Part shown: positions 3 through 10,811 of the stretch, piece by piece
How the letters are laid out: each line of letters opens with the position of its first letter
How positions within the stretch are numbered: position 1 is the stretch's first letter
Assembly (NCBI GenBank): GCA_030018495.1
Contig: JASEFS010000033.1
Span: 1 to 39,634 of the forward strand
Reading direction: 5' to 3'
Origin: Deltaproteobacteria bacterium
Lineage (GTDB): Bacteria; Desulfobacterota; Desulfobaccia; Desulfobaccales; 0-14-0-80-60-11
Length of the DNA stretch: 39,634 nt
The notes under the pieces: model-generated
Told to the model about the DNA's origin: nothing
The model's input: only the letters and a program-made list of their open reading frames with translations
Database searches by the model: none
Position numbers and translations under genes: made by a program

Positions 3-1889
3 CTTACGGACCTGAACCGCCCCGGCGAGGCCATCCAGGAAATCAACAAGTCCATTGAGCTGAACGACAACGTGGCCATGTTCCGCGGCCGCCAATCCCT
101 GGACCAGGACCGGGCGGTGCGAAATACAAACCTGGCCCGCTCTTATCAGCAACTGGGTTTGAGCGAGTGGGCCTTCAGCAAGGCGGTCACCGCGGTCAAG
201 CATGACCCGTACAACAGTTCGGCCCACCTTTTTCTGCAGGACAGCTATGACGTGGGCGGGCCTTTCTTCCTGAACTCAGGACAACTCTTAGTAGCCTTAG
301 AAACAGAAGGGCTCCTCTACCGCCTGCTGTCCCCGGCCAACCAGAACACCTTCAGCAATCTTGTACTAGTAGGGGCAGAAAATCTGGGCCTCACGCTGGA
401 CTATACCCCCATGTACGAAATGCCCTACGGCCGCGTTATCGCCTCGGGGGGCATCGGCGCCTGGGACGGCAGAGAGAGCATCCAGAGCCATCAGGGCTGG
501 TTGTATGGGGGTTTGCCCGGGGCTGCGTTTATCGGGGGGGCGCGATATTTTGACGACAGAGGTTTCGGAGCCGTAAATGACTTTTTCCGGCAATACAGCT
601 TCGTGGGGGGCATTAAATGGTCACCCACTGTAAAAGGAACCCTTACAGGTTCAGTGCAATACGCGGATGATCGGTTCGGAGACCTTAGCAACCGGGCGAA
701 TTTCAGCGCGCCTGTCAATCCCAGCCTCCATACAGCAATGCGGACAAATTTATATGAATTCGGCTATCATCATCGCTTTAATCCGCAGGCGGGCTTTCTG
801 GCCTATTTTACCCATCGAAAGAAAACCTTCCATGAGAACTCGATGCTTGACATCGGTATTCCCAACTCTCTCACCCAGGCGTTGGATCAAGAGTGGGACA
901 ATTTTCAGTTTCAGCAACATCTCACAATAGGAAAGCATTCTTTCATTGCGGGTTTTGATTATTATTCCTGCAACGTCAGCATGAGAGGGAAGTTAAGTTT
1001 CCCTCCGCCTTTCGATATATTCAACGACAGCGTTGATTTCCGACCGCCTTCACGCTCCTACAGCTTCTACCTTTTGGATTATTGGCGTCTCAGGCCCAAC
1101 CTGGTGGCGGAGTTGGGTTTGTTCAAAGACTTCAGCAAGGACCCTGTTTTTGTTGCGCCCAATACCGTGTACCAGTCACTCTGGAGCCCCCGCTTCGGCG
1201 TCAACTACCAGTTCAACCTGGCGAGCACTCGCCACACCCTGCGCCTGGCTCTGGAGCGCCATCTGACCACGCATTTCATTAATCAGCCGATACTTGTGCC
1301 CTCTGAAATCGCCGGCTTCCCGTGGGCCATCAACGCCAACACGGGCTCGGAGGTGCGCCAGGCCGGGGCTGCCTGGGAGGCTCAGTGGGATCCAAAAACC
1401 TTTACAACCCTGCGCCTCAATGCCTTGCGGATATCGACCCCCGATTTCGTCACCGAAACAGACGCGATATCACTTAAATGGAAGCGCTATCAAGCCTCCC
1501 TGACCTTAAACCGGATACTGGTCAATTCCCTGGGATTGTCCGCGGGCTTCTCGGGCAAGAGGTTTGTCCCCGACCTTTCCTTTCAGCCCGCCTTACATGA
1601 TTATTATGAAATTAACGGCTTTCTGGGGCTTTCCTATCTGAACCGCCGAGGTTTTTTGGCAGGCATCAGGACCTTTCTGGTGCAGCAATTTCTGGAAAAC
1701 CGGGCGGACAACCCCTTTGCCCTGGTAAATCTGCGCCTGGGTTGGGAATTCCCCAAAAAGCGGGGGTTGGCGCTGTTTGAGGTGGAGAATCTGTTCAACC
1801 GGCATTTCTTTTATGCCATTGAGCCCCGGCGGGACATAGAATTTTCTCCGGCTCGCCGGTTTTTGTTCCGCCTGGCTTTCTATTTTTAA
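3..1889 (+). CDS. TPR protein with C-terminal outer-membrane beta-barrel (5' end cut by window)
   Basis: The reading frame is open to the left edge, so the true start lies outside the window; about 628 residues are visible. The first ~80 residues read as tetratricopeptide helices (residues like NTNLARSYQQLG followed by a second helix pair). From there to the end the sequence alternates polar and aromatic residues as in a transmembrane beta-barrel. It finishes like a TonB-dependent receptor: a strand containing EVENLFNRHF and a last residue Phe, which is typical for recognition by the BAM machinery. I infer an outer-membrane protein whose periplasmic TPR part binds a partner. No plug domain is visible, though it could lie upstream. 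The next gene encodes a Tat-exported protein, which suggests a shared envelope function. Substrate unknown; confident about the barrel, not about the role. Confidence 0.75.
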   Translation, partial: LTDLNRPGEAIQEINKSIELNDNVAMFRGRQSLDQDRAVRNTNLARSYQQLGLSEWAFSKAVTAVKHDPYNSSAHLFLQDSYDVGGPFFLNSGQLLVALETEGLLYRLLSPANQNTFSNLVLVGAENLGLTLDYTPMYEMPYGRVIASGGIGAWDGRESIQSHQGWLYGGLPGAAFIGGARYFDDRGFGAVNDFFRQYSFVGGIKWSPTVKGTLTGSVQYADDRFGDLSNRANFSAPVNPSLHTAMRTNLYEFGYHHRFNPQAGFLAYFTHRKKTFHENSMLDIGIPNSLTQALDQEWDNFQFQQHLTIGKHSFIAGFDYYSCNVSMRGKLSFPPPFDIFNDSVDFRPPSRSYSFYLLDYWRLRPNLVAELGLFKDFSKDPVFVAPNTVYQSLWSPRFGVNYQFNLASTRHTLRLALERHLTTHFINQPILVPSEIAGFPWAINANTGSEVRQAGAAWEAQWDPKTFTTLRLNALRISTPDFVTETDAISLKWKRYQASLTLNRILVNSLGLSAGFSGKRFVPDLSFQPALHDYYEINGFLGLSYLNRRGFLAGIRTFLVQQFLENRADNPFALVNLRLGWEFPKKRGLALFEVENLFNRHFFYAIEPRRDIEFSPARRFLFRLAFYF

Positions 1890-2006
1890 ATGCTTGGCAG
1901 CGTGGCTGATTTTAGGCAATCAAAGGAGGTGAGGGAACAGCATAAGATGGCTTTCAGAGATTCCTCAGGACAATTGAACCCCCTGGCCCGCAAAGGAGAC
2001 AATTTC

Positions 2007-2672
2007 ATGAGCACTTCCCGTAGAAATTTCTTTAAAAGATTGGCTGGCGGAGTCGGCGCTCTCAGCCTGGGTGGCATCATCCTGTCAAAGCGAGGCTGGT
2101 TCGGGTTGCCGGGTCCTGCTGAAGCCTTCGCCCAACCTGGCCGGTATTACGAATTGAGATCAGGATTCACTTTTTTCGAAGGCTATCGGACAGGGCCCCC
2201 CTCTCCAAGTATCCCGGCATTTATTAAAGGGATTTACAGGGTAAGACCAAACGATGAACAGGGCGTGCTTGAATCCATTAGACAAAGAGTAAATAAACTT
2301 CCTCCTCGTGGGAGAGCCGTTAGAGATATGGGAGAAAACGAGCTTAGGCCACAAATAGTCGATCACAACGCGTCTCCTAAACAAACCTATGAACTCAGCG
2401 ATGAGGCCGCCTATATCACTCGCTTACTCTTGGTTGACGTGGATGTAAACTCTCTCGCCAGCATGTATGCTTCGCGTTACAACCTCGCCACCGAAGCTGC
2501 CTTGCAAGCTGTTAATAGTTTCATCAACAACAACCCCTTCTTTCAAGTGAAAGCCGTAGTGGGCCAACCACATCAAACTCCCAGGGTAAACAGGAAAAAT
2601 TTCACCGAGATTTGGGCCGATTTTTCCATAGGAAGTGTTTGGGTAAGCAAGGTTAGTTCCTTTCCGGCATGA
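2007..2672 (+). CDS. Tat-exported protein of unknown function
   Basis: The protein has 221 residues. The ATG at 2007 is chosen because a strong AAAGGAGA ribosome site lies just before it and because translation from there opens with a classical twin-arginine signal (S-RRNFFK, then a hydrophobic stretch, with AEAFA before the likely cleavage). Earlier in-frame starts would bury the signal behind 39 residues. The mature part has no cysteine and no fold I recognise. It is polar, with an Asn-rich stretch near residues 170-180 and several Pro/Tyr. The stop overlaps the next start by four bases, so translation is coupled to the radical SAM gene. It could be the substrate of that enzyme, or an exported partner of the upstream barrel; both are inference. 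Confidence 0.75.
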   Translation: MSTSRRNFFKRLAGGVGALSLGGIILSKRGWFGLPGPAEAFAQPGRYYELRSGFTFFEGYRTGPPSPSIPAFIKGIYRVRPNDEQGVLESIRQRVNKLPPRGRAVRDMGENELRPQIVDHNASPKQTYELSDEAAYITRLLLVDVDVNSLASMYASRYNLATEAALQAVNSFINNNPFFQVKAVVGQPHQTPRVNRKNFTEIWADFSIGSVWVSKVSSFPA

Positions 2673-3685
2673 GAGTAATAATCCTGGAACCCACAAACCG
2701 GTGCAATCGGGCCTGCCTCCACTGTTTACGGAATCGGGAGGACCCGCGCCATGACCTGCCCCTGGAAATCGCAGGGCACATTCTCGAGCAGGCCAGGGAG
2801 TTGGAGATTCGCCTTGTTTGTCTGACCGGGGGTGAGGTGTCTCTTTACCCTTACCTGGAGGATTTGATCGCAAAGGTAGTATCCCTTGGGTTTGATTTTT
2901 CCCTGGTGACCAACGGCTTCCGCTTTCGGGAGTATGTTTTGCCCCTCTTGCTGGAAGCAAAAGTGAAGCCCTGCATACACTCGGTTTGCTTCAGCCTGGA
3001 CGGCAACACCCACTCGGCGCACGACGCCCTGAGGGGTCAGGGCTCGTATGCGGAGGTGAGAGAAGCTATACATTTCTGCCGAAAAAACCACCTTCCCCTT
3101 GCCCTGAAAAGCGCCATTACCATACTCAATCAAACGGAACTCGCTCAACTGGCGCTTTTGGGGGCCCGATTGGGAGCCCGGGAGCACGAATTTCTCTTTC
3201 TTGACCCAACGCCCACCTTGATTGAGAAAGGTCTTCTCCCTTCTCCCGAAGAATTAAAGGGAATCGCCCATTGGATCAGGAGCGATTTGGCAGGCGCAGT
3301 CACCACCAAGATTACCGTGGAGGGCTATGTCCAGGAAGGCCCCATTCTGCACTGTGGCACTATAATGAACTCCCTTAATGTGGATTACCTGGGGAATTTA
3401 ATTTTGTGCTGCCAGCTCTCCCATGTGACTATGGGCGACCGCGTGCCCACCCGGTTTAATGGAGAGCTGGTGGCGGATTTAAAAGAGGTGTCCCTGAAAG
3501 AAGGCATCATCCGGCAATACCGACTGGCAGCCAAGCTCATGGAGCACAAGCTGGAAAGCACCGGGAAGCCGGCGGGAATCAGCCAGACTCCGTGCCATTG
3601 GTGTCTTTATCACTTCGGCAAGCTGGAATGGCTGAAAAAATTTCCCGCCTCGCCCTGGGCCCAGGAATTGTTGCCGAATAGCTGA
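2669..3685 (+). CDS. Radical SAM protein with SPASM-like C-terminus
   Basis: The protein has 338 residues. The radical SAM cluster motif is at the very N-terminus (C12-x3-C16-x2-C19), followed by the TGGE motif that contacts the SAM methionine. The C-terminal third has extra cysteines (C229, C247, C248, C309, C312) spaced like a SPASM/twitch auxiliary cluster. SPASM enzymes usually modify peptides or proteins (thioether or C-C crosslinks, epimerisation) or mature enzymes. The ATG overlaps the stop of the Tat-protein gene (ATGA), so the two products are made together. No other peptide substrate gene is visible nearby. The enzyme is certainly radical SAM; its reaction is unknown. Confidence 0.85.
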   Translation: MRVIILEPTNRCNRACLHCLRNREDPRHDLPLEIAGHILEQARELEIRLVCLTGGEVSLYPYLEDLIAKVVSLGFDFSLVTNGFRFREYVLPLLLEAKVKPCIHSVCFSLDGNTHSAHDALRGQGSYAEVREAIHFCRKNHLPLALKSAITILNQTELAQLALLGARLGAREHEFLFLDPTPTLIEKGLLPSPEELKGIAHWIRSDLAGAVTTKITVEGYVQEGPILHCGTIMNSLNVDYLGNLILCCQLSHVTMGDRVPTRFNGELVADLKEVSLKEGIIRQYRLAAKLMEHKLESTGKPAGISQTPCHWCLYHFGKLEWLKKFPASPWAQELLPNS

Positions 3686-3839
3686 GTTGCGAAATACTGA
3701 TAGAGTTGACTTAGATATGAGATCATTTCCAAGCGGGAGCTTGGGAACGAGAGGTTTAAGCTTGGGAACGAGGTCAGCGAGGTTTATAAAGCGGTCTTTT
3801 TCGCGGGCAGTGCCCGTTTTGCAACTCGGGCTCTTAAAA

Positions 3840-3865
3840 GGTGGCACAGGCTTTCCAGCCTGCGC
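3840..3865. repeat. REP-like hairpin, copy 1
   Basis: GGTGGCACAGGCTTTCC followed by AGCCTGCGC. The arms GCACAGGCT and AGCCTG(C)GC pair around TTCC with one mismatch. A second copy with perfect arms lies at 32741-32766, about 29 kb away, so this is a dispersed element. Confidence 0.75.
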
Positions 3866-3958
3866 GGTGAGGGGCTTTGCAATCTCGACTTATCCAGCCT
3901 GCCGGTGCCTGGTATCGTAACATGATAAATGAACCTGATCGTACAACCGATATACAAG

Positions 3959-3978
3959 GGGCGCAATTTATTGCGCCC
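3959..3978. repeat. Short palindrome
   Basis: The arms GGGCGCAAT and ATTGCGCCC form a perfect 9-base inverted repeat with a 2-base centre. No T-run follows, so a terminator role is not favoured. Confidence 0.7.
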
Positions 3979-3982
3979 TAAA

Positions 3983-4002
3983 GGGCTTGATGAATCAAGC
4001 CC
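3983..4002. repeat. Short palindrome
   Basis: The arms GGGCTTGAT and ATCAAGCCC form a perfect 9-base inverted repeat around GA. It starts five bases after the previous palindrome, giving a twin-hairpin unit as in REP doublets. Confidence 0.7.
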
Positions 4003-4037
4003 CTACAAAAAATTATGCTTTGGCGTCAATTTAAAAT

Positions 4038-4092
4038 ATAGGGCGGCCTGTGGCCGCCGCGTCAACACGATGGCGGCCGCGGCCCGCCCTAT
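4038..4092. repeat. Nested inverted repeat
   Basis: The outer arms ATAGGGCGG and CCGCCCTAT enclose inner arms GGCCGCC and GGCGGCC, giving a long GC-rich cruciform-like structure. Confidence 0.6.
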
Positions 4093-4233
4093 GGGAAACC
4101 GCACGCGGCCCTTCCGGTTCCGGTGATTCGATTTGCAAGGGGCAACCGGGCGGACGAAGCACCGCGGCCTAATCCTATGAACTTGCAGCATTTGCAGGTC
4201 TTAAAAGCCTGTCTGGGTTTTGAGTTTTTGCAG

Positions 4234-4250
4234 GGTGCGCACTGCGCACC
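4234..4250. repeat. Short palindrome
   Basis: GGTGCGCA and TGCGCACC form a perfect inverted repeat about a single central base. Confidence 0.6.
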
Positions 4251-4269
4251 GTTAGCCCAGGCAGCTACA

Positions 4270-4291
4270 GGCCCAAGCAGGAGCTTGGGCC
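4270..4291. repeat. Short palindrome
   Basis: The arms GGCCCAAGC and GCTTGGGCC are perfect and enclose AGGA. The AGCTTGGG half recurs in the TTGGGAACGAG repeats of the same patch, so the families may be related. Confidence 0.65.
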
Positions 4292-4464
4292 GTCAATGTC
4301 GTTAACATGCAGGAGTTTGGGAACGAGGTCAGAAAACCTCCCCCGGCCTCTGCATCCTGCATCTTGCCCCCCCGATCCCTGCCCCCTGACCTCTGTCCCC
4401 TGGCCACCGGCCACTAACCACTGGCCACTGTTTAACGAGGTTTATAAAGCGGGTCCCCATGTTC

Positions 4465-5493
4465 TCAGGCTATCCTAAGCACCTTGGCCCCTCTGATCTT
4501 CCTCTCCTTGAGTTCCAGGAGGGCCTGATTTGCTTCCTCCAGCCGGTACTCCTGCACCTCGGGCTTAAGGGGTATTTCTGCAGCAATTCGGAGAAATTCC
4601 CCCACATCCCGCCGGGCCACATTGGCGACGCTTTTGATTTCTTTTTCCAGCCAGAGGTGTTCCGGATAATGCAGCTGCAGGAGGGCGTCCTTGTCCAGGT
4701 CTTCTTTGCGGATGGCGTTGATGACCAGGCGGCCGCCGCGCTCCAGATACCTGAGCCCATGCACGATGGGGCTCCACACCGGCGTGGTGTCGATGGCCCG
4801 GTGGAGCCCGGCGGGCGGCGCCTCGTGAAAATCCCCGGCCCACACTGCACCCAATTCCAGGGCGAAATGCCGCTCTCCGGGAGTCCGGGAAAAAGCATAG
4901 ACCTTCACTCCGGGATAGAGATGCTGCACGAGCTTCATGACCAGGTGGGCCGAGGCGCCGAACCCCAGGAGGCCCAAATTTTCGCCGTCCTGAATCTGGG
5001 TGAGTCGCAGAGAGCGGTAGCCGATGGCTCCGGCGCAGAGCAGCGGCGCGGCCTCGGCATCGCTGAAGACGGCGGGGATGGGAAACGCAAAGTCTTCGCT
5101 CGCGACCATGTACTCGGCATAGCCGCCTGGCGCATCCCTGCCGGTAGCCTTAAAGTCCCGGCACAGGTTTTCATTGCCGGCCGCACAGAATTCGCACCGC
5201 CCGCAAGAGGAAAAAATCCAGCCGAGGCCCACCCGGTCGCCCAAGTCGAATTTCCCGGTCCCAGGTCCGAGTTTTGCCACCCGGCCCACCACCTGGTGGC
5301 CCAACACCATAGGGAAGCGGGACGGAGGCGTGCGGCCCTCGATTTCATCCAGCTCGGTGTGGCACACCCCGCAGGCGGACACCTTTACCAGGATTTGCCG
5401 CTCCCCGGGCTCCGGCACAGGAATTTCCGTAAGAGAAAGAGGGATGCGATTTTCCGGCAGCCTGGCGAGGTCGGTCAGGACCATGGCTTTCAT
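4465..5493 (-). CDS. Zinc-dependent alcohol dehydrogenase family protein
   Basis: The 342-residue length is typical of medium-chain dehydrogenases. The catalytic zinc residues are visible: C44-H45 in GVCH, H66 in GHQVVG, and C153. Q67 stands where Glu is usual in GHE. The structural zinc loop is complete (C97, C100, C103, C111). The nucleotide-binding fold follows with GLLGFGASAH at about 173-182. It should oxidise an alcohol or reduce an aldehyde with NAD(P); the substrate cannot be read. The overall pattern resembles the family sometimes called adh_fam_2. It is the last gene on its strand, and the palindrome patch lies beyond its stop. Confidence 0.9.
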   Translation of the reverse strand: MKAMVLTDLARLPENRIPLSLTEIPVPEPGERQILVKVSACGVCHTELDEIEGRTPPSRFPMVLGHQVVGRVAKLGPGTGKFDLGDRVGLGWIFSSCGRCEFCAAGNENLCRDFKATGRDAPGGYAEYMVASEDFAFPIPAVFSDAEAAPLLCAGAIGYRSLRLTQIQDGENLGLLGFGASAHLVMKLVQHLYPGVKVYAFSRTPGERHFALELGAVWAGDFHEAPPAGLHRAIDTTPVWSPIVHGLRYLERGGRLVINAIRKEDLDKDALLQLHYPEHLWLEKEIKSVANVARRDVGEFLRIAAEIPLKPEVQEYRLEEANQALLELKERKIRGAKVLRIA

Positions 5494-5635: not shown

Positions 5636-6361
5636 TTATTTCCCCTGGGCGGCGAACAGCATGGCGATGGGTTTGGCCATGCTCTGAATGTGGGCATGAA
5701 TCGGTGCCAGATCACAAACGTTTATTCCCATCATCAGGTGGCAGGCGTCCAGCCCGGTCTTGATGCGGCAGCCCAATCCCAGAAAAGTGATGTTCGGCAA
5801 GCCGGTGAGAAGAGGCAGCGCGGTTATATCCGAGCAGCCCCCCAAAGCTCCCCCGGATTGGGGCAGGTTCTGACGGCCGCCTCGCTCATAGTTGGCCGCA
5901 TAGAGAAGCCACATGACCTGCTCGCTGTTGACCGTGAACACCACTACCTGGGGTTCGGCCGGGCAGGCCGACAAGGGGGCGATGAGGACCGCCTGGGTCT
6001 TGCCTTTCTCCAGATAAGTCGAATCCATAATGGTGCGGGCGGAGGCTTCTTCGGTGGCAAATAAGCCCACGCCATATTTTTCCAAAATGCCGTCGTCCAG
6101 GATAGCCTCCGTGTCCGGCTCCATGCCCAGGACCGCGGTTCCCAGCTTGCAGCCCATGTTCTCCCGCTTGAGCAGAAGCGTACGGCCCTGGCCTGCCAGC
6201 ACCAGGGCTTGGCAATAGCTCTTCAGATTTTCCGATGTAAAGGCAAGGCCCGAGGGCAAAGCTTCCTCTTGCCGGTAAAGGGTCACCCCCACCGGTTCAT
6301 ACGCGAGGCGGAGACTTTGTCGTAGATTTTTGGAAATCTCCTTTATTTCCTGCACCTTCAT
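5636..6361 (-). CDS. DUF169 family protein
   Basis: The protein has 241 residues. Recognised from the overall DUF169 pattern: an N-terminal LRQSLRLAYEPVGV segment, a central CKLGTAVLGM region, then PLLTGLPNITFLGLGCRIKTGLD. The family is common in anaerobic archaea and deltaproteobacteria and its biochemistry is not established. The ATG at 6361 is preferred over an in-frame GTG two codons earlier because GGAGGT overlaps that GTG and stands four bases before the ATG. It is divergent from treZ, sharing a 116-base spacer. Scattered cysteines might bind metal, but I see no clear cluster motif. Confidence 0.85.
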   Translation of the reverse strand: MKVQEIKEISKNLRQSLRLAYEPVGVTLYRQEEALPSGLAFTSENLKSYCQALVLAGQGRTLLLKRENMGCKLGTAVLGMEPDTEAILDDGILEKYGVGLFATEEASARTIMDSTYLEKGKTQAVLIAPLSACPAEPQVVVFTVNSEQVMWLLYAANYERGGRQNLPQSGGALGGCSDITALPLLTGLPNITFLGLGCRIKTGLDACHLMMGINVCDLAPIHAHIQSMAKPIAMLFAAQGK

Positions 6362-6383
6362 GTGCACCTCCGTTCATATCCTA

Positions 6384-6412
6384 TTGATTTTCGCGCCAAA
6401 TTGTACTATATT
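6384..6412 (+). promoter_or_regulatory. Sigma-70-type promoter for the treZ operon
   Basis: TTGATT (6384-6389), 17-base spacer, TATATT (6407-6412). The -10 box sits inside an imperfect dyad TTGTAC...GTACA (6401-6419), a possible operator. It lies 66 bases before the likely start of treZ. Confidence 0.6.
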
Positions 6413-6477
6413 TTGTACATCTTCTGATTTATTCCGCTTAAATTCAGCTTTTTTCCGGTTCGGCGCAGACAGGAGGA

Positions 6478-8328
6478 TTGGTTATTTTTGCCACGAGTCT
6501 CGGCGCCACGTATCTGGGTGACAATCAATGTTTTTTCAGGGTTTGGGCTCCCAAGGCGCGGACTCTTGAGGTCCATATCTTGTCCCCTGAGGACCGGCTG
6601 GTGCCTCTTAAAAAGCATGACCGCGGCTACTTTCAGGGAATTGTTCCTGATGTCGAGCCGGGGGCCCTTTACTTTTACAGATTGGACGGGGACAAAGAGC
6701 GCCCCGACCCGGCTTCGAAGTTCCAGCCTCAGGGAGTGCATCAGCCCTCCCAGGTAATCGACCCGAATTTCCCTTGGGAAGACGGCCATTGGTCCGGCCT
6801 GTCCCTCTATAACTATGTAATCTATGAGCTGCACGTGGGGACCTTCACCCCGGAGGGCACTTTTGAGGCCATCATACCCCACTTGGATGAACTCAAAGAC
6901 TTGGGAATCACGGCCATAGAGCTCATGCCCGTGGCCCAGTTTCCGGGCAGCCGCAACTGGGGCTACGACGGGGTGCATCCCTTTGCGGTCCAGAACACCT
7001 ATGGCGGCCCCGAAGGCTTGAAAAAACTGGTCAATGCCTGCCATCGCCGAGGACTGGCCGTAGTCCTGGATGTAGTTTACAACCATTTCGGCCCCGAGGG
7101 CAATTACATCCAAGAGTACGGCTACTATTTCACCAAGCGCTACCGCACCCCGTGGGGGGATGCCGTCAACTTCGACGACGCATACAGCGACGAAGTGCGT
7201 CGATTCTTCATCGAAAACGCGTTGTACTGGATCACCGAGTGCCACATCGACGCCCTGCGGCTGGACGCCTTGCATGCCATCCTGGACCACTCTGCCCAAA
7301 CTTTTCTCAAGGATTTGGCAGAGGCCGTGCATGAGCAGGCCGATAAGCTCAACCGCCGGGTTTACCTGATGGCCGAAAGCGACTTGAACGATGTCCGGCT
7401 GATCAACCCTCCGGAGCTCGGGGGCTTTAACCTGGACGCCCACTGGCTGGACGACTTTCATCATGCCCTGCATACCCTTTTGACCGGAGAAGATGCCGGG
7501 TATTATCAGGATTTTGGGGGTGTCCGACATCTGGCCAAGGCCTTCCAGGAAGGCTTTATCTATTCCGGCCAGTATTCCCGGTTCCGCCGGCGGCGGCACG
7601 GCTCTTCCACGCGCCACATTGCGGCACATCGCTTCATAGCCTTCGCCCAGAACCACGACCAGATCGGCAACAGCATGCTGGGCAAGCGTCTGAGTCAGAT
7701 TGTCTCCCTGGAGGGCCTCAAACTGGCAGCCGGAGTCCTCATTTTATCGCCTTTTATTCCCCTGTTGTTCATGGGGGAGGAATATGCGGAAACTGCGCCG
7801 TTTCAATATTTTATCAGTTTTTTGGACCAAGACCTGGTGGCCTCGGTGCAACGCGGCCGCAAGGTGGAGTTCGAGGCCTTCCATGCCGGGGGGGAGCCTC
7901 CAGATCCCCAAAGCGAAGCCACCTTCCAGCGCTCCACCTTGAATCACGGCCTCAAAACCCAGGAACCGCACCGCACCGTATGGGAATTTTATCGGGAGCT
8001 TCTGCGCCTGCGCCGGGAATTGCCTCCTTTGGCCCATTTGAGCAAAGAGCATCAGGAAGTGCTCGTTTTTGAACAGGCCAAGGTCTTGTGGATCAAGCGC
8101 TTGTATGACAGACAGGCAGCCTTGCAAATCTTCCATTTCGGCTCCGAACCTCTGGACGCGGCCATGCCCGTGCCCCAGGGGGAGTGGCAAAAGGTGGTGG
8201 ATTCGGCTGACAGTATGTGGCGCGGTCCAGGCTCCCGCGTTCCCGCAATCCTGGCATCAACCGGAGAGGTGGGTCTGACCTTCGCTCCCTGGTCATTCGT
8301 GGTGTTCACCAATACCGGAGCCCTATGA
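6478..8328 (+). CDS. treZ: Malto-oligosyltrehalose trehalohydrolase
   Basis: Cuts trehalose from maltooligosyl-trehalose, the second step of the TreY/TreZ route in the cytoplasm. It is a GH13 enzyme of about 616 residues, the usual size. An N-terminal CBM48-like beta domain (to ~100) precedes the barrel, with the nucleophile in LRLDALHAI (D263), acid/base in MAESD (E300) and the third acid in QNHDQIGN (D394). GlgB was considered, but the NHDQIGN block and the treY partner favour TreZ. The start is odd: a strong AGGAGGA (6471-6477) directly touches the TTG at 6478. An ATT at 6484 has the better spacing of six bases, and no ATG or GTG is available upstream of the conserved SLGA. The stop overlaps the next start (ATGA). 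Confidence 0.93.
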   Translation: MVIFATSLGATYLGDNQCFFRVWAPKARTLEVHILSPEDRLVPLKKHDRGYFQGIVPDVEPGALYFYRLDGDKERPDPASKFQPQGVHQPSQVIDPNFPWEDGHWSGLSLYNYVIYELHVGTFTPEGTFEAIIPHLDELKDLGITAIELMPVAQFPGSRNWGYDGVHPFAVQNTYGGPEGLKKLVNACHRRGLAVVLDVVYNHFGPEGNYIQEYGYYFTKRYRTPWGDAVNFDDAYSDEVRRFFIENALYWITECHIDALRLDALHAILDHSAQTFLKDLAEAVHEQADKLNRRVYLMAESDLNDVRLINPPELGGFNLDAHWLDDFHHALHTLLTGEDAGYYQDFGGVRHLAKAFQEGFIYSGQYSRFRRRRHGSSTRHIAAHRFIAFAQNHDQIGNSMLGKRLSQIVSLEGLKLAAGVLILSPFIPLLFMGEEYAETAPFQYFISFLDQDLVASVQRGRKVEFEAFHAGGEPPDPQSEATFQRSTLNHGLKTQEPHRTVWEFYRELLRLRRELPPLAHLSKEHQEVLVFEQAKVLWIKRLYDRQAALQIFHFGSEPLDAAMPVPQGEWQKVVDSADSMWRGPGSRVPAILASTGEVGLTFAPWSFVVFTNTGAL

Positions 8329-10811
8329 AACGATACCTGTGCGTTCACGGTCACTTCTATCAGCCCCCTCGGGAAAACCCGTGGCTTGAAGCCATAGAAA
8401 TGCAGGATTCAGCTTATCCTTATCATGATTGGAACGAAAGGATTTCGGCTGAGTGCTATAATGCCAATGCCGCTTCCCGCATTCTGGACTACCAGGGCCG
8501 GATAGCGAGCATTCCCAACAATTACGCCAATATCAGCTTTAATTTCGGCCCTACCCTCCTGGCTTGGCTGAAAGATAAAGACCCGGAGACGTATCACAGG
8601 ATATTGGCGGCCGATAAGGAGTCAAAAAGAAGGTTTTCAGGCCACGGCTCAGCCCTGGCTTTGGCGTATAATCACATGATTCTGCCCCTGGCCAACGGGC
8701 GGGACAAATACACCCAGGTGCTGTGGGGGATTCGGGATTTTCAGCATCGCTTCAAGCGCAAGCCGGAGGGCATGTGGCTGCCGGAAACCGCGGTGGACCT
8801 GGAGACTCTGGATATTCTGGCGGCTCTGGGCATCAAGTTTACCATTCTGGCCCCCAACCAGGCCAAAAGGGTGCGGCCCAAGGGGCGGCGCCTCTGGATG
8901 GATGTGAGCGGCAGCCGCATCGATCCTACCATGGCCTACATCCAGCGGCTCCCCTCGGGGAGAAAAATCAATCTCTTTTTCTACGACGGCCCTATTTCCA
9001 GGGCCGTTGCTTTTGAAGGACTGCTCGCGGATGGCGTGAAATTTGCCGAAAGGCTCTTAAGCGGCTATGACTCCAACCGGCCCCATGCTCAGCTTGTGCA
9101 CATCGCCACGGACGGAGAAAGCTATGGCCACCATCATGCCAAGGGCGACATGGCTCTGGCCTATGCCCTCCGGTATATCGAAGAAAACGACCTGGCTCAA
9201 CTGACCAACTACGCCGAGTACCTCAAGAAGCATCCGCCCACTCACTACGTGGAAATTTTCGAGAATTCCTCCTGGAGCTGCGTCCATGGAGTGGACCGCT
9301 GGTGGCGCGATTGCGGCTGCAATTCCGGCGGCTACCCCCAATGGAACCAGGCCTGGCGCACCCCGTTGCGGGATGCCCTGGATTGGCTCCGGGACAATCT
9401 GGCCATCAAATACGAGCAAGTCGCCGGTCGTCTGCTCAATGACCCCTGGGCCGCCAGGAACGACTACATCAATGTCATCCTGGACCGCTCTCCTGAAAAC
9501 ATCGCCGGGTTTTTGAGAAAGCACGCCATCCGCAATCCAGCTCCAGACAATGTCACCACCATCCTCAAACTTATGGAGTTGCAGCGCCATCTCATGCTCA
9601 TGTACACAAGCTGCGGCTGGTTTTTTGACGAACTGAGCGGTATTGAAACGGTGCAGGTGCTGCAATACGCCGGCCGGGCCGTGCAGTTGGCCCAGGAGGT
9701 TCTCGGGGATGAGACTGTGGAGCCGGAGTTTCTGCACCGGCTGGAGGGTGCCAAAAGCAACATCCCCGAGCATAAAGACGGCCGCCGCCTTTACGAAAAG
9801 ACGGTAAAGGGCACCATGGTGGACCTCCTCAAGGTGGGAGCCCATTACGCGGTCAGTTCCCTGTTTGAAGAATACCCTGTCAAGACCAGAATTTTTGCTT
9901 ACTCGGTGGAGCAGGAGGCTTACCAGGTTCACGAGTCCGGCAGGCTGCGCCTGGCCCTGGGGCGGGCCCGGTTCACTTCTGAAATCACCCGGGAATCGGC
10001 CGCCTTGAGCTTCGGCGTGCTCCATTTCGGCGACCATAATCTCAACTGCGGCGTGCGGGAATTCCGGGGGGCGGAAGCTTACGACGCCATGGTGCGGGAA
10101 GCCACCGACATTTTCAAGCGGGCGGATATCCCTGAAACCATCCGCTGTCTGGACCGCCACTTCGGCGCGTCCATTTATTCGCTGAAGTCCCTCTTTTATG
10201 ACGAGCGCCGCAAAGTCCTGGACATGGTCATGGAGTCAACGCTCCTGGAAGCCGAGGCCATGTATCGCCAGATTTACAATCAGCAAGCCCCGCTGATGCG
10301 GTTTTTGAAAAGCATGGACGGCATGCCTCTGCCCAGCGCCTTTCTCAATGCCGCGGATTTCCTTCTGAACTTTCACCTGCGCAAGGCCTTTGAAGAGGAA
10401 CGCTTTGACGCCGCTCCCGCCTTGCTTGAGGATGCCGGACTCTGGGAGATCAAACTGGACGCGGCCGGATTGGGGTTCGCCCTGAAGCAGACCATGGCAC
10501 GGCTGGCCTTAAACCTGAGATACCAGCCCGATAATATCGAGACTCTGGAAACCCTGACCCGGGCCGCGGGGTTAGCCGCAGACCTGCCCTTTGACGTGGA
10601 TATCCGCCAGGTGCAGAATATTTATTTCACCATGCTGCAGACCGTCTATCCCGAGTGGCGCCGGCTGGCCGATCAGGGAGAGAAGACGGCGCGGCATTGG
10701 GTTGATCTTTTCCAGTCCCTGGGGGAGAAGCTGGCAGTGTGCGTGGAGTATTGCATTTCTGAGTCAGCAACCTCTGAAGGGGTGCTACGGTTGGTCTCCC
10801 ATGAAAACTGA
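8325..10811 (+). CDS. Glycoside hydrolase family 57 protein with DUF3536
   Basis: The protein has 828 residues. The GH57 motifs are clear: HGHFYQPPRENPW at the N-terminus, WLPE with the nucleophile E154, and HIATDGESYGHHH with the acid D263. A long C-terminal helical region matches DUF3536. GH57 enzymes act on alpha-1,4 or alpha-1,6 glucans (amylase, 4-alpha-glucanotransferase, branching enzyme); the exact activity of the DUF3536 type is not known to me. The gene starts inside the treZ stop codon (GGAG upstream) and overlaps treY by 11 bases, so the three are made together. It probably prepares or trims the maltodextrin that TreY uses, the place usually filled by the debranching enzyme TreX. 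Confidence 0.9.
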   Translation: MKRYLCVHGHFYQPPRENPWLEAIEMQDSAYPYHDWNERISAECYNANAASRILDYQGRIASIPNNYANISFNFGPTLLAWLKDKDPETYHRILAADKESKRRFSGHGSALALAYNHMILPLANGRDKYTQVLWGIRDFQHRFKRKPEGMWLPETAVDLETLDILAALGIKFTILAPNQAKRVRPKGRRLWMDVSGSRIDPTMAYIQRLPSGRKINLFFYDGPISRAVAFEGLLADGVKFAERLLSGYDSNRPHAQLVHIATDGESYGHHHAKGDMALAYALRYIEENDLAQLTNYAEYLKKHPPTHYVEIFENSSWSCVHGVDRWWRDCGCNSGGYPQWNQAWRTPLRDALDWLRDNLAIKYEQVAGRLLNDPWAARNDYINVILDRSPENIAGFLRKHAIRNPAPDNVTTILKLMELQRHLMLMYTSCGWFFDELSGIETVQVLQYAGRAVQLAQEVLGDETVEPEFLHRLEGAKSNIPEHKDGRRLYEKTVKGTMVDLLKVGAHYAVSSLFEEYPVKTRIFAYSVEQEAYQVHESGRLRLALGRARFTSEITRESAALSFGVLHFGDHNLNCGVREFRGAEAYDAMVREATDIFKRADIPETIRCLDRHFGASIYSLKSLFYDERRKVLDMVMESTLLEAEAMYRQIYNQQAPLMRFLKSMDGMPLPSAFLNAADFLLNFHLRKAFEEERFDAAPALLEDAGLWEIKLDAAGLGFALKQTMARLALNLRYQPDNIETLETLTRAAGLAADLPFDVDIRQVQNIYFTMLQTVYPEWRRLADQGEKTARHWVDLFQSLGEKLAVCVEYCISESATSEGVLRLVSHEN

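Follow-up and report, generated by a model that had tools for sequence, protein, structure and literature searches.

A protein with a Tat signal and a predicted RRE fold, encoded beside a radical SAM enzyme and an outer-membrane barrel in a Desulfobacterota genome

We analyzed a stretch of 39,634 bases (the window), which is the entire contig C43 of a Deltaproteobacteria bacterium from the Desulfobacterota whose genome comprises 3.46 Mb and is 99.97% complete, and we describe here a cassette of three genes at its start (Table 1). The genes encode the C-terminal part of an outer-membrane barrel protein, a small protein with a twin-arginine translocation (Tat) signal that we call P0003, and a radical S-adenosylmethionine (SAM) enzyme that we call P0001. 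A preliminary description had reported that the three genes are collinear and that the last two overlap by four bases, and both statements hold: all three genes lie on the plus strand, and an ATGA holds the stop codon of the P0003 gene and the start codon of the P0001 gene. An identical ATGA overlap occurs at a related locus, L026 (7019-7022), with gaps of 1 to 92 nucleotides at the other related loci, and the overlapping stop and start codons suggest that P0003 and P0001 may be translationally coupled. We assigned the start of P0003 to the ATG at 2007, which fits both the Shine-Dalgarno sequence and the N-terminal SRRNFFK motif, and rejected the first ATG of the frame at 1890.

P0003 contains no cysteine, in agreement with the preliminary description, which had also taken it to be without a known fold; the latter view does not survive structural comparison. 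The AlphaFold 2 (AF2) model of P0003 is confident only at residues 45-58 and 112-180, which form two hairpins and three helices (core pLDDT 71-89) and show the winged-helix fold of three strands and three helices characteristic of the RRE/PqqD family, and comparison with VIA matched it to proteins known as recognition elements (RREs) of ribosomally synthesized and post-translationally modified peptides (RiPPs), namely TfuB1 (6jx3; Z 10.3, rmsd 1.5 over 78 residues), TbiB1 (Z 9.8), and PqqD (Z 7.3). Foldseek placed the same RREs at its top ranks, and the top fold matches include lasso B1 proteins with a leader bound. Four slot proteins (the proteins encoded between barrel and enzyme) from other loci were used to build a hidden Markov model (HMM), with P0003 left out. 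This model found P0003 at E 1.6e-14, compared to 0.65 for the best-scoring of 2000 shuffled sequences, and it also detected a true PqqD at locus L089 (E 8.5e-4). P0003 itself scores 15.1 bits against Pfam PqqD (PF05402, cut-off 23.4), and its sister proteins at L070 (32 bits) and L029 (24.6 bits) exceed that cut-off. Because of these structural matches, the family HMM, and the sister proteins above the PqqD cut-off, we take P0003 to be, by its modeled structure, an RRE of the PqqD/lasso-B1 fold extended by a Tat signal, an insertion of 52 residues, and a tail of 40 residues for which disorder is predicted. A Pfam match to DUF1439 (E 6e-4, below cut-off) was considered as an identity for P0003 and set aside in favor of the RRE fold on the basis of structure and family HMM.

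The signal peptide of P0003 scores 18.9 bits against the NCBIfam Tat profile TIGR01409 (cut-off 16.7 bits), in line with the Tat export proposed in the preliminary description, and residues 1-39 share 49% identity with the N-terminus of a formate-dehydrogenase-like Tat protein from the same genome. We found no RRE bearing a Tat signal in the open-access literature.

P0001 belongs to the radical SAM superfamily, as had been proposed, with both a Pfam match and the CxxxCxxC motif. The SPASM-like cysteine set attributed to it is only partly present. Measured against the seven-cysteine SPASM motif (Cx9-15Gx4C ... Cx2Cx5Cx3C ... C), P0001 has the Cx12Gx4C and CxxC elements but neither the Cx5Cx3C element nor a Pfam SPASM match up to E 1, and because of this combination it may hold one auxiliary Fe-S cluster at most, which would make it twitch-like rather than a full SPASM protein. 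All nine family members keep the four C-terminal cysteines, with the spacing ahead of the glycine varying by one or two, and all nine share the signature CxxC[LY]xxx[GR]KLxWL around the second auxiliary pair. P0001 belongs to no named NCBIfam equivalog, including those of the SynChlorMet system (ScmE/ScmF); its best score is 67.3 bits for ScmE, whose cut-off is 400. Its nearest relatives in the PDB include SkfB, BlsE, PqqE, and YydG, among which SkfB, PqqE, and YydG are peptide modifiers.

A scan of genome contigs with the enzyme recovered five Desulfobacca-like relatives and one distant match in Slackia at 24% identity, the named relatives being Desulfobacca, Syntrophobacterales, and Deltaproteobacteria metagenome-assembled genomes (MAGs), and no relative of P0001 was found among IMG/VR viral contigs. 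Among 395 genomes of the phylum, strong relatives outside the class to which this bacterium belongs came to light at one locus only, L089 (G347:C168, 3243-13119), where they stand in tandem as a pair. The two tandem P0001 homologues there adjoin two PqqD genes, and the locus also encodes an HprK-like protein, NTP_transf_5, an S24/S26-like peptidase, an ABC transporter, a third radical SAM protein, and a candidate precursor of 78 residues (7661-7897, minus strand). Judged by this gene content, L089 is a putative peptide-maturation island in another Desulfobacterota MAG.

The barrel gene runs off the start of the contig, so the outer-membrane TPR-barrel of the preliminary description stands, with TPR helices and 22 strands predicted here, and has to be qualified as the product of an incomplete gene: the signal peptide, the FecR domain, and most TPRs, some 600 residues at the N-terminus, are gone. 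Because contig C7 of the same genome ends in a copy of the first 120 bases of the truncated gene (95% identity), the assembly break is probably located in a repeat common to C43 and C7. An AF2 model of the remaining piece, built with 20 relatives, places TPR helices ahead of a 22-stranded barrel (pLDDT 79, pTM 0.83), and all structural matches listed by Foldseek and VIA-align are TonB-dependent receptors (among them PirA, FpvA, and Cir; Foldseek E down to 2e-17), the best VIA-align match among those listed being PirA (Z 20.3, rmsd 3.5 over 420 residues). Relatives that are complete have about 1240 residues and consist of a signal peptide, a FecR domain (PF04773, E 6e-11), an extended array of TPRs, and a C-terminal region without a Pfam match. 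The family thus shares the 22-stranded barrel with TonB-dependent receptors but differs from them in having a TPR arm and a FecR domain and no Pfam receptor or plug match; in two full-length relatives Pfam found no plug domain up to E 1, with FecR and TPRs there instead.

The barrel belongs to a kind already known. Clusters of a FecR outer-membrane protein, a TPR protein, and a CHASE2 cyclase have been described in Campylobacterota (PMC9239204), and the same components occur together here, with the differences that FecR, TPR, and barrel are fused in one protein and that some copies have gained the RRE/radical SAM pair. The barrel family is present, often in several copies, in 16 of the 29 genomes of the class, and a CHASE2 adenylate/guanylate cyclase adjoins the barrel at no fewer than 14 of the 27 loci looked at. 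The usual neighbor of the barrel is therefore this CHASE2 cyclase and not the radical SAM enzyme, and the barrel can no longer be regarded as a specific partner of the enzyme. In the genome studied here a CHASE2 cyclase (58% identical, contig C52) has no barrel or enzyme within the 16 kb examined.

Relatives of the cassette recur within one class of Desulfobacterota, in Desulfobacca-like MAGs. Intact enzymes lie at seven loci in six genomes of this class, and a slot protein of 146-221 residues stands between barrel and enzyme at all six loci whose contig includes the upstream gene. At the seventh, L025, the contig starts 36 bases before the enzyme, and an open frame ending ...VNWFGTGCCKF enters the enzyme start. 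The preliminary description had looked to co-occurrence of the three families for support and to enzyme homologues that always lack the Tat protein for refutation. Co-occurrence extends to slot protein and enzyme at each readable locus, and the barrel ranges more widely, in 16 genomes compared to six with an intact enzyme. Taken literally, enzymes without a Tat-bearing partner are what we find at six of seven loci (one of these being the unreadable one), even though a slot protein accompanies the enzyme wherever its position can be read.

The slot proteins of the RRE family are those of the window (Tat signal), L029 (m188 with a Sec signal and m164 with none), L026, and L070; two other types are m159 on C7 and m146 at L027 and L028. 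This RRE family occurs in 3 of the 395 genomes and always adjoins the enzyme or an enzyme remnant. A second, diverged cassette lies in the same genome on C7 (L013, 8372-12051, minus strand), with a barrel 54% and an enzyme 47% identical to those of the window; its slot protein ends in KTCCF. On a tree of the barrels, the enzyme-associated copies fall into two supported clades, one comprising the window, L029, L070, L026, and L025 and the other C7, L027, and L028, so that enzyme association requires 2 changes compared to a shuffled mean of 6.5 (none of 500 shuffles was as low), with the RRE-type slot proteins in the first clade. On these grounds, cassette, barrel lineage, and slot-protein type travel together across families of the class. 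We dropped a comparison of enzyme and barrel trees for congruence because branches of the enzyme tree are too poorly supported (one starred branch, group B p-AU 0.21).

Two loci show decayed or truncated enzymes. At L070, radical SAM remnants at 5182-5406 (minus strand, cysteine motif lost) and 9796-9951 (minus strand, upstream of the barrel) flank the barrel, and a leftover barrel C-terminus lies before the cyclase; together they could be signs of recombination among tandem barrel cassettes. At L080, an enzyme cut at about 91 residues is fused to the middle of a barrel gene (8517-8840 and 5780-8533, both minus strand) with an unrelated frame of 163 residues upstream, and we read this as a rearrangement or misassembly and excluded it from the count of intact cassettes. 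In the open-access literature we found no paper combining FecR, PqqD, and radical SAM in such a manner.

An RRE beside a radical SAM enzyme points to peptide recognition for modification, and genes two and three very probably constitute a modification pair of the RiPP-maturation type. A modification system with an exported partner, as put forward in the preliminary description, remains the best reading and is strengthened by the RRE domain in P0003, the means by which radical SAM maturases recognize their substrates, and by the PqqD genes near the relatives at L089. We propose, at slightly less than an even chance, that the substrate of the enzyme is the RRE protein's own tail. In favor of this, a comparison of open reading frames of at least 18 residues from the eight cassettes returned only pieces of known genes and antisense frames and no conserved small frame, and two slot proteins bear export signals. 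Conservation in the slot-protein relatives is also, as a rule, higher over the final 20 residues than over the body: for three sister proteins the identities are 65, 60, and 45% in the tails against 34, 25, and 33% in the bodies, and for the m146 pair 90% against 75%. The sister tails (...DVDLNQMGGGGYKIPPR, ...GVDLNQTGTLYYKIPPR, and ...DVEHNQMGGVGIKIPPT) display a conserved C-terminal pattern, and the paralogues at L029 have a tail pattern in common whether an export signal is present (m188) or not (m164).

Under this proposal, P0001 would dock on the RRE domain of P0003 in the cytosol and modify the disordered C-terminal tail of P0003 itself, so that the substrate would bring along its own folded leader in the form of the RRE. 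As judged from its sequence, a thioether product is excluded for P0003 because the protein has no cysteine; the product would require a C-C, C-N, or C-O crosslink or an epimerized residue, and, by analogy only, carbon-carbon links from an aromatic residue to a nearby residue are a possibility. Tat translocates folded proteins, and since the enzyme would be cytosolic (it has no signal and carries Fe-S), export would follow modification, by Tat at the window and by Sec at L029. Once exported, to the periplasm or the cell surface, the product would serve the barrel as ligand or adaptor, and likewise the CHASE2 cyclase at loci that have one. A role with the barrel is suggested by gene order and shared barrel lineages, and we hold it tentatively, as somewhat more doubtful than probable. 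The explanation as a whole, in which the pair modifies the RRE tail and the product is exported and acts with the barrel, is the best we can offer and falls only a little on the doubtful side of balance. A version specified at every step, with the RRE as folded leader of its own substrate, a modified tail, Tat or Sec export, a ligand or adaptor of a FecR-TPR-TonB-type barrel, and a link to CHASE2 signaling, is unlikely to be right throughout.

Several observations weigh against this explanation. An RRE ordinarily serves a separate peptide in trans, and the open reading frames compared came from the cassettes, so that a precursor gene elsewhere in the genome is possible. The tail of P0003 is an exception to the conservation described above, with 10-20% identity to the RRE-type sisters over the last 20 residues. 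In profile comparison, m146 and m159 matched RREs no better than shuffled sequences did. Export signals occur in only two of the eight slot proteins, Tat in that of the window and Sec in m188 of L029, and Tat export is consequently not a property of the system as had been supposed. At L070 the slot protein is intact and the enzyme is a decayed fragment without the cysteine motif, and the slot protein there may be independent of the enzyme. Finally, most barrel copies have no radical SAM neighbor.

Alternatively, the RRE protein could be a trans-acting presenter of an unseen precursor encoded elsewhere, with Tat at this locus letting the folded RRE export the bound product. The RREs characterized so far attach to a different peptide, at its leader or follower (PMC12710340, PMC7470986), the closest structures to P0003 are RREs with a leader bound, most slot proteins are without an export signal, as is ordinary PqqD, and the L089 island has separate PqqD and candidate precursor genes. 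We nevertheless consider a presenter role somewhat unlikely, given that no conserved small open reading frame lies between or beside the genes at the eight loci, that the conserved extra tails and export signals would be superfluous for it, and that a periplasmic RRE would be useless to a cytosolic enzyme.

A quite unlikely alternative is that the slot protein puts the RRE fold to another use, as a domain for binding or signaling in the periplasm on behalf of the barrel/CHASE2 pair, with the enzyme acting on an unrelated target and linked by neighborhood only; the RRE family was not found apart from the enzyme or its remnant in the 395 genomes, and the overlapping stop and start codons suggest translational coupling of RRE and enzyme, although L070 retains the RRE protein and the barrel beside an enzyme remnant and FecR-domain outer-membrane proteins cluster with CHASE2 cyclases in other bacteria (PMC9239204). 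That the barrel gene comes first in the cassette, and that enzyme-associated barrels form two distinct lineages, could also indicate that the barrel or its TPR arm is the substrate and the RRE protein a docking factor. This strikes us as very unlikely: barrels of the same family function without the enzyme in most genomes, a Sec-bound protein of 1240 residues would need to be retained long enough to be modified ahead of its export, and a superficial check identified no barrel segment as an RRE recognition motif.

The cassette invites comparison with known systems. PqqD and the stand-alone lasso RREs TfuB1 and TbiB1 have the same beta hairpins and three helices and likewise stand beside a radical SAM or other peptide-modifying enzyme, but P0003 differs from them by its Tat signal, insertion, and tail and by the lack of a visible separate precursor gene. 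SynChlorMet (Scm), GeoRSP, and similar NCBIfam systems also join a radical SAM enzyme to a PqqD partner, and ScmE is the best NCBIfam match of P0001, but homology to the window cassette is limited to the radical SAM half and the other content differs. Proteusins are RiPP precursors with a long folded leader (PMC10858898), and the likeness under our explanation would be a folded N-terminal domain followed by a short C-terminal region to modify; proteusin leaders are nitrile-hydratase-like, whereas in P0003 the RRE itself would take the place of the leader. RREs of the DUF2063 type, which serve DUF2282 precursors (PMC12710340), likewise combine peptide modification with an export signal, but there the precursor bears the signal, a Sec signal, and in the present cassette the RRE protein does.

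Beyond the cassette, positions 3700-4460 of the window contain no obvious gene and include repeated words such as GCTTGGGAACGAGG, resembling dispersed intergenic repeats. The next genes, for a zinc-type alcohol dehydrogenase (4465-5493) and a DUF169 protein (5636-6367), lie on the minus strand facing the cassette and are apparently unrelated to it.

Table 1. Features of the cassette in the window (positions counted from the first base of the contig)
Feature	Position	Strand	Basis
Outer-membrane barrel protein, C-terminal 628 residues	3..1889	+	Open frame running off the window start, which is the contig start
End of TPR arm, helices	Residues 7-109 of the 3..1889 frame	+	AF2
22-stranded TonB-receptor-type barrel, C-terminus FYF	Residues 142-628, nt 426-1886	+	AF2, Foldseek, VIA-align
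Shine-Dalgarno sequence AAAGGAG of the Tat gene	1992..1998	+	Sequence
Tat-signal protein P0003, predicted RRE, 221 aa, no cysteine	2007..2672	+	Tat profile, AF2 model, VIA, family HMM
Predicted Tat signal peptide SRRNFFK...AEAFA/Q, 42 residues	2007..2132	+	TIGR01409, 18.9 bits
Predicted RRE (PqqD-fold) domain, residues 45-181	2139..2549	+	VIA Z 10.3 to TfuB1; family HMM
Low-confidence insertion in RRE domain, residues 60-111 (52 residues)	2184-2339	+	AF2
Predicted disordered C-terminal tail ...FTEIWADFSIGSVWVSKVSSFPA, proposed modification site, 40 residues	2550..2669	+	pLDDT ~33
ATGA stop/start overlap of RRE and enzyme genes	2669..2672	+	Sequence
Radical SAM enzyme P0001, one auxiliary-cluster cysteine set	2669..3685	+	Pfam Radical_SAM, E 4.5e-19
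CxxxCxxC radical SAM cluster motif, C12, C16, C19	2702..2725	+	Invariant in seven intact loci
Auxiliary cysteines C229-x12-G-x4-C247 and C309-x2-C312	3353..3604	+	Present in 9/9 family members

The cassette appears to combine familiar parts of peptide-modification systems, an RRE and a radical SAM enzyme, in a new way, beside a surface sensing/transport barrel. RREs are known as cytosolic presenters of peptides, and an exported RRE with a tail of its own would, if the proposal is true, extend the substrates of RiPP-type modification beyond short peptides to proteins that are folded and exported, and would tie a modification enzyme to an outer-membrane sensing/transport barrel. With its two overlapping genes the cassette is small enough for direct testing, and the natural variants of the slot protein (no signal, Sec, and Tat) offer a ready series for comparison.

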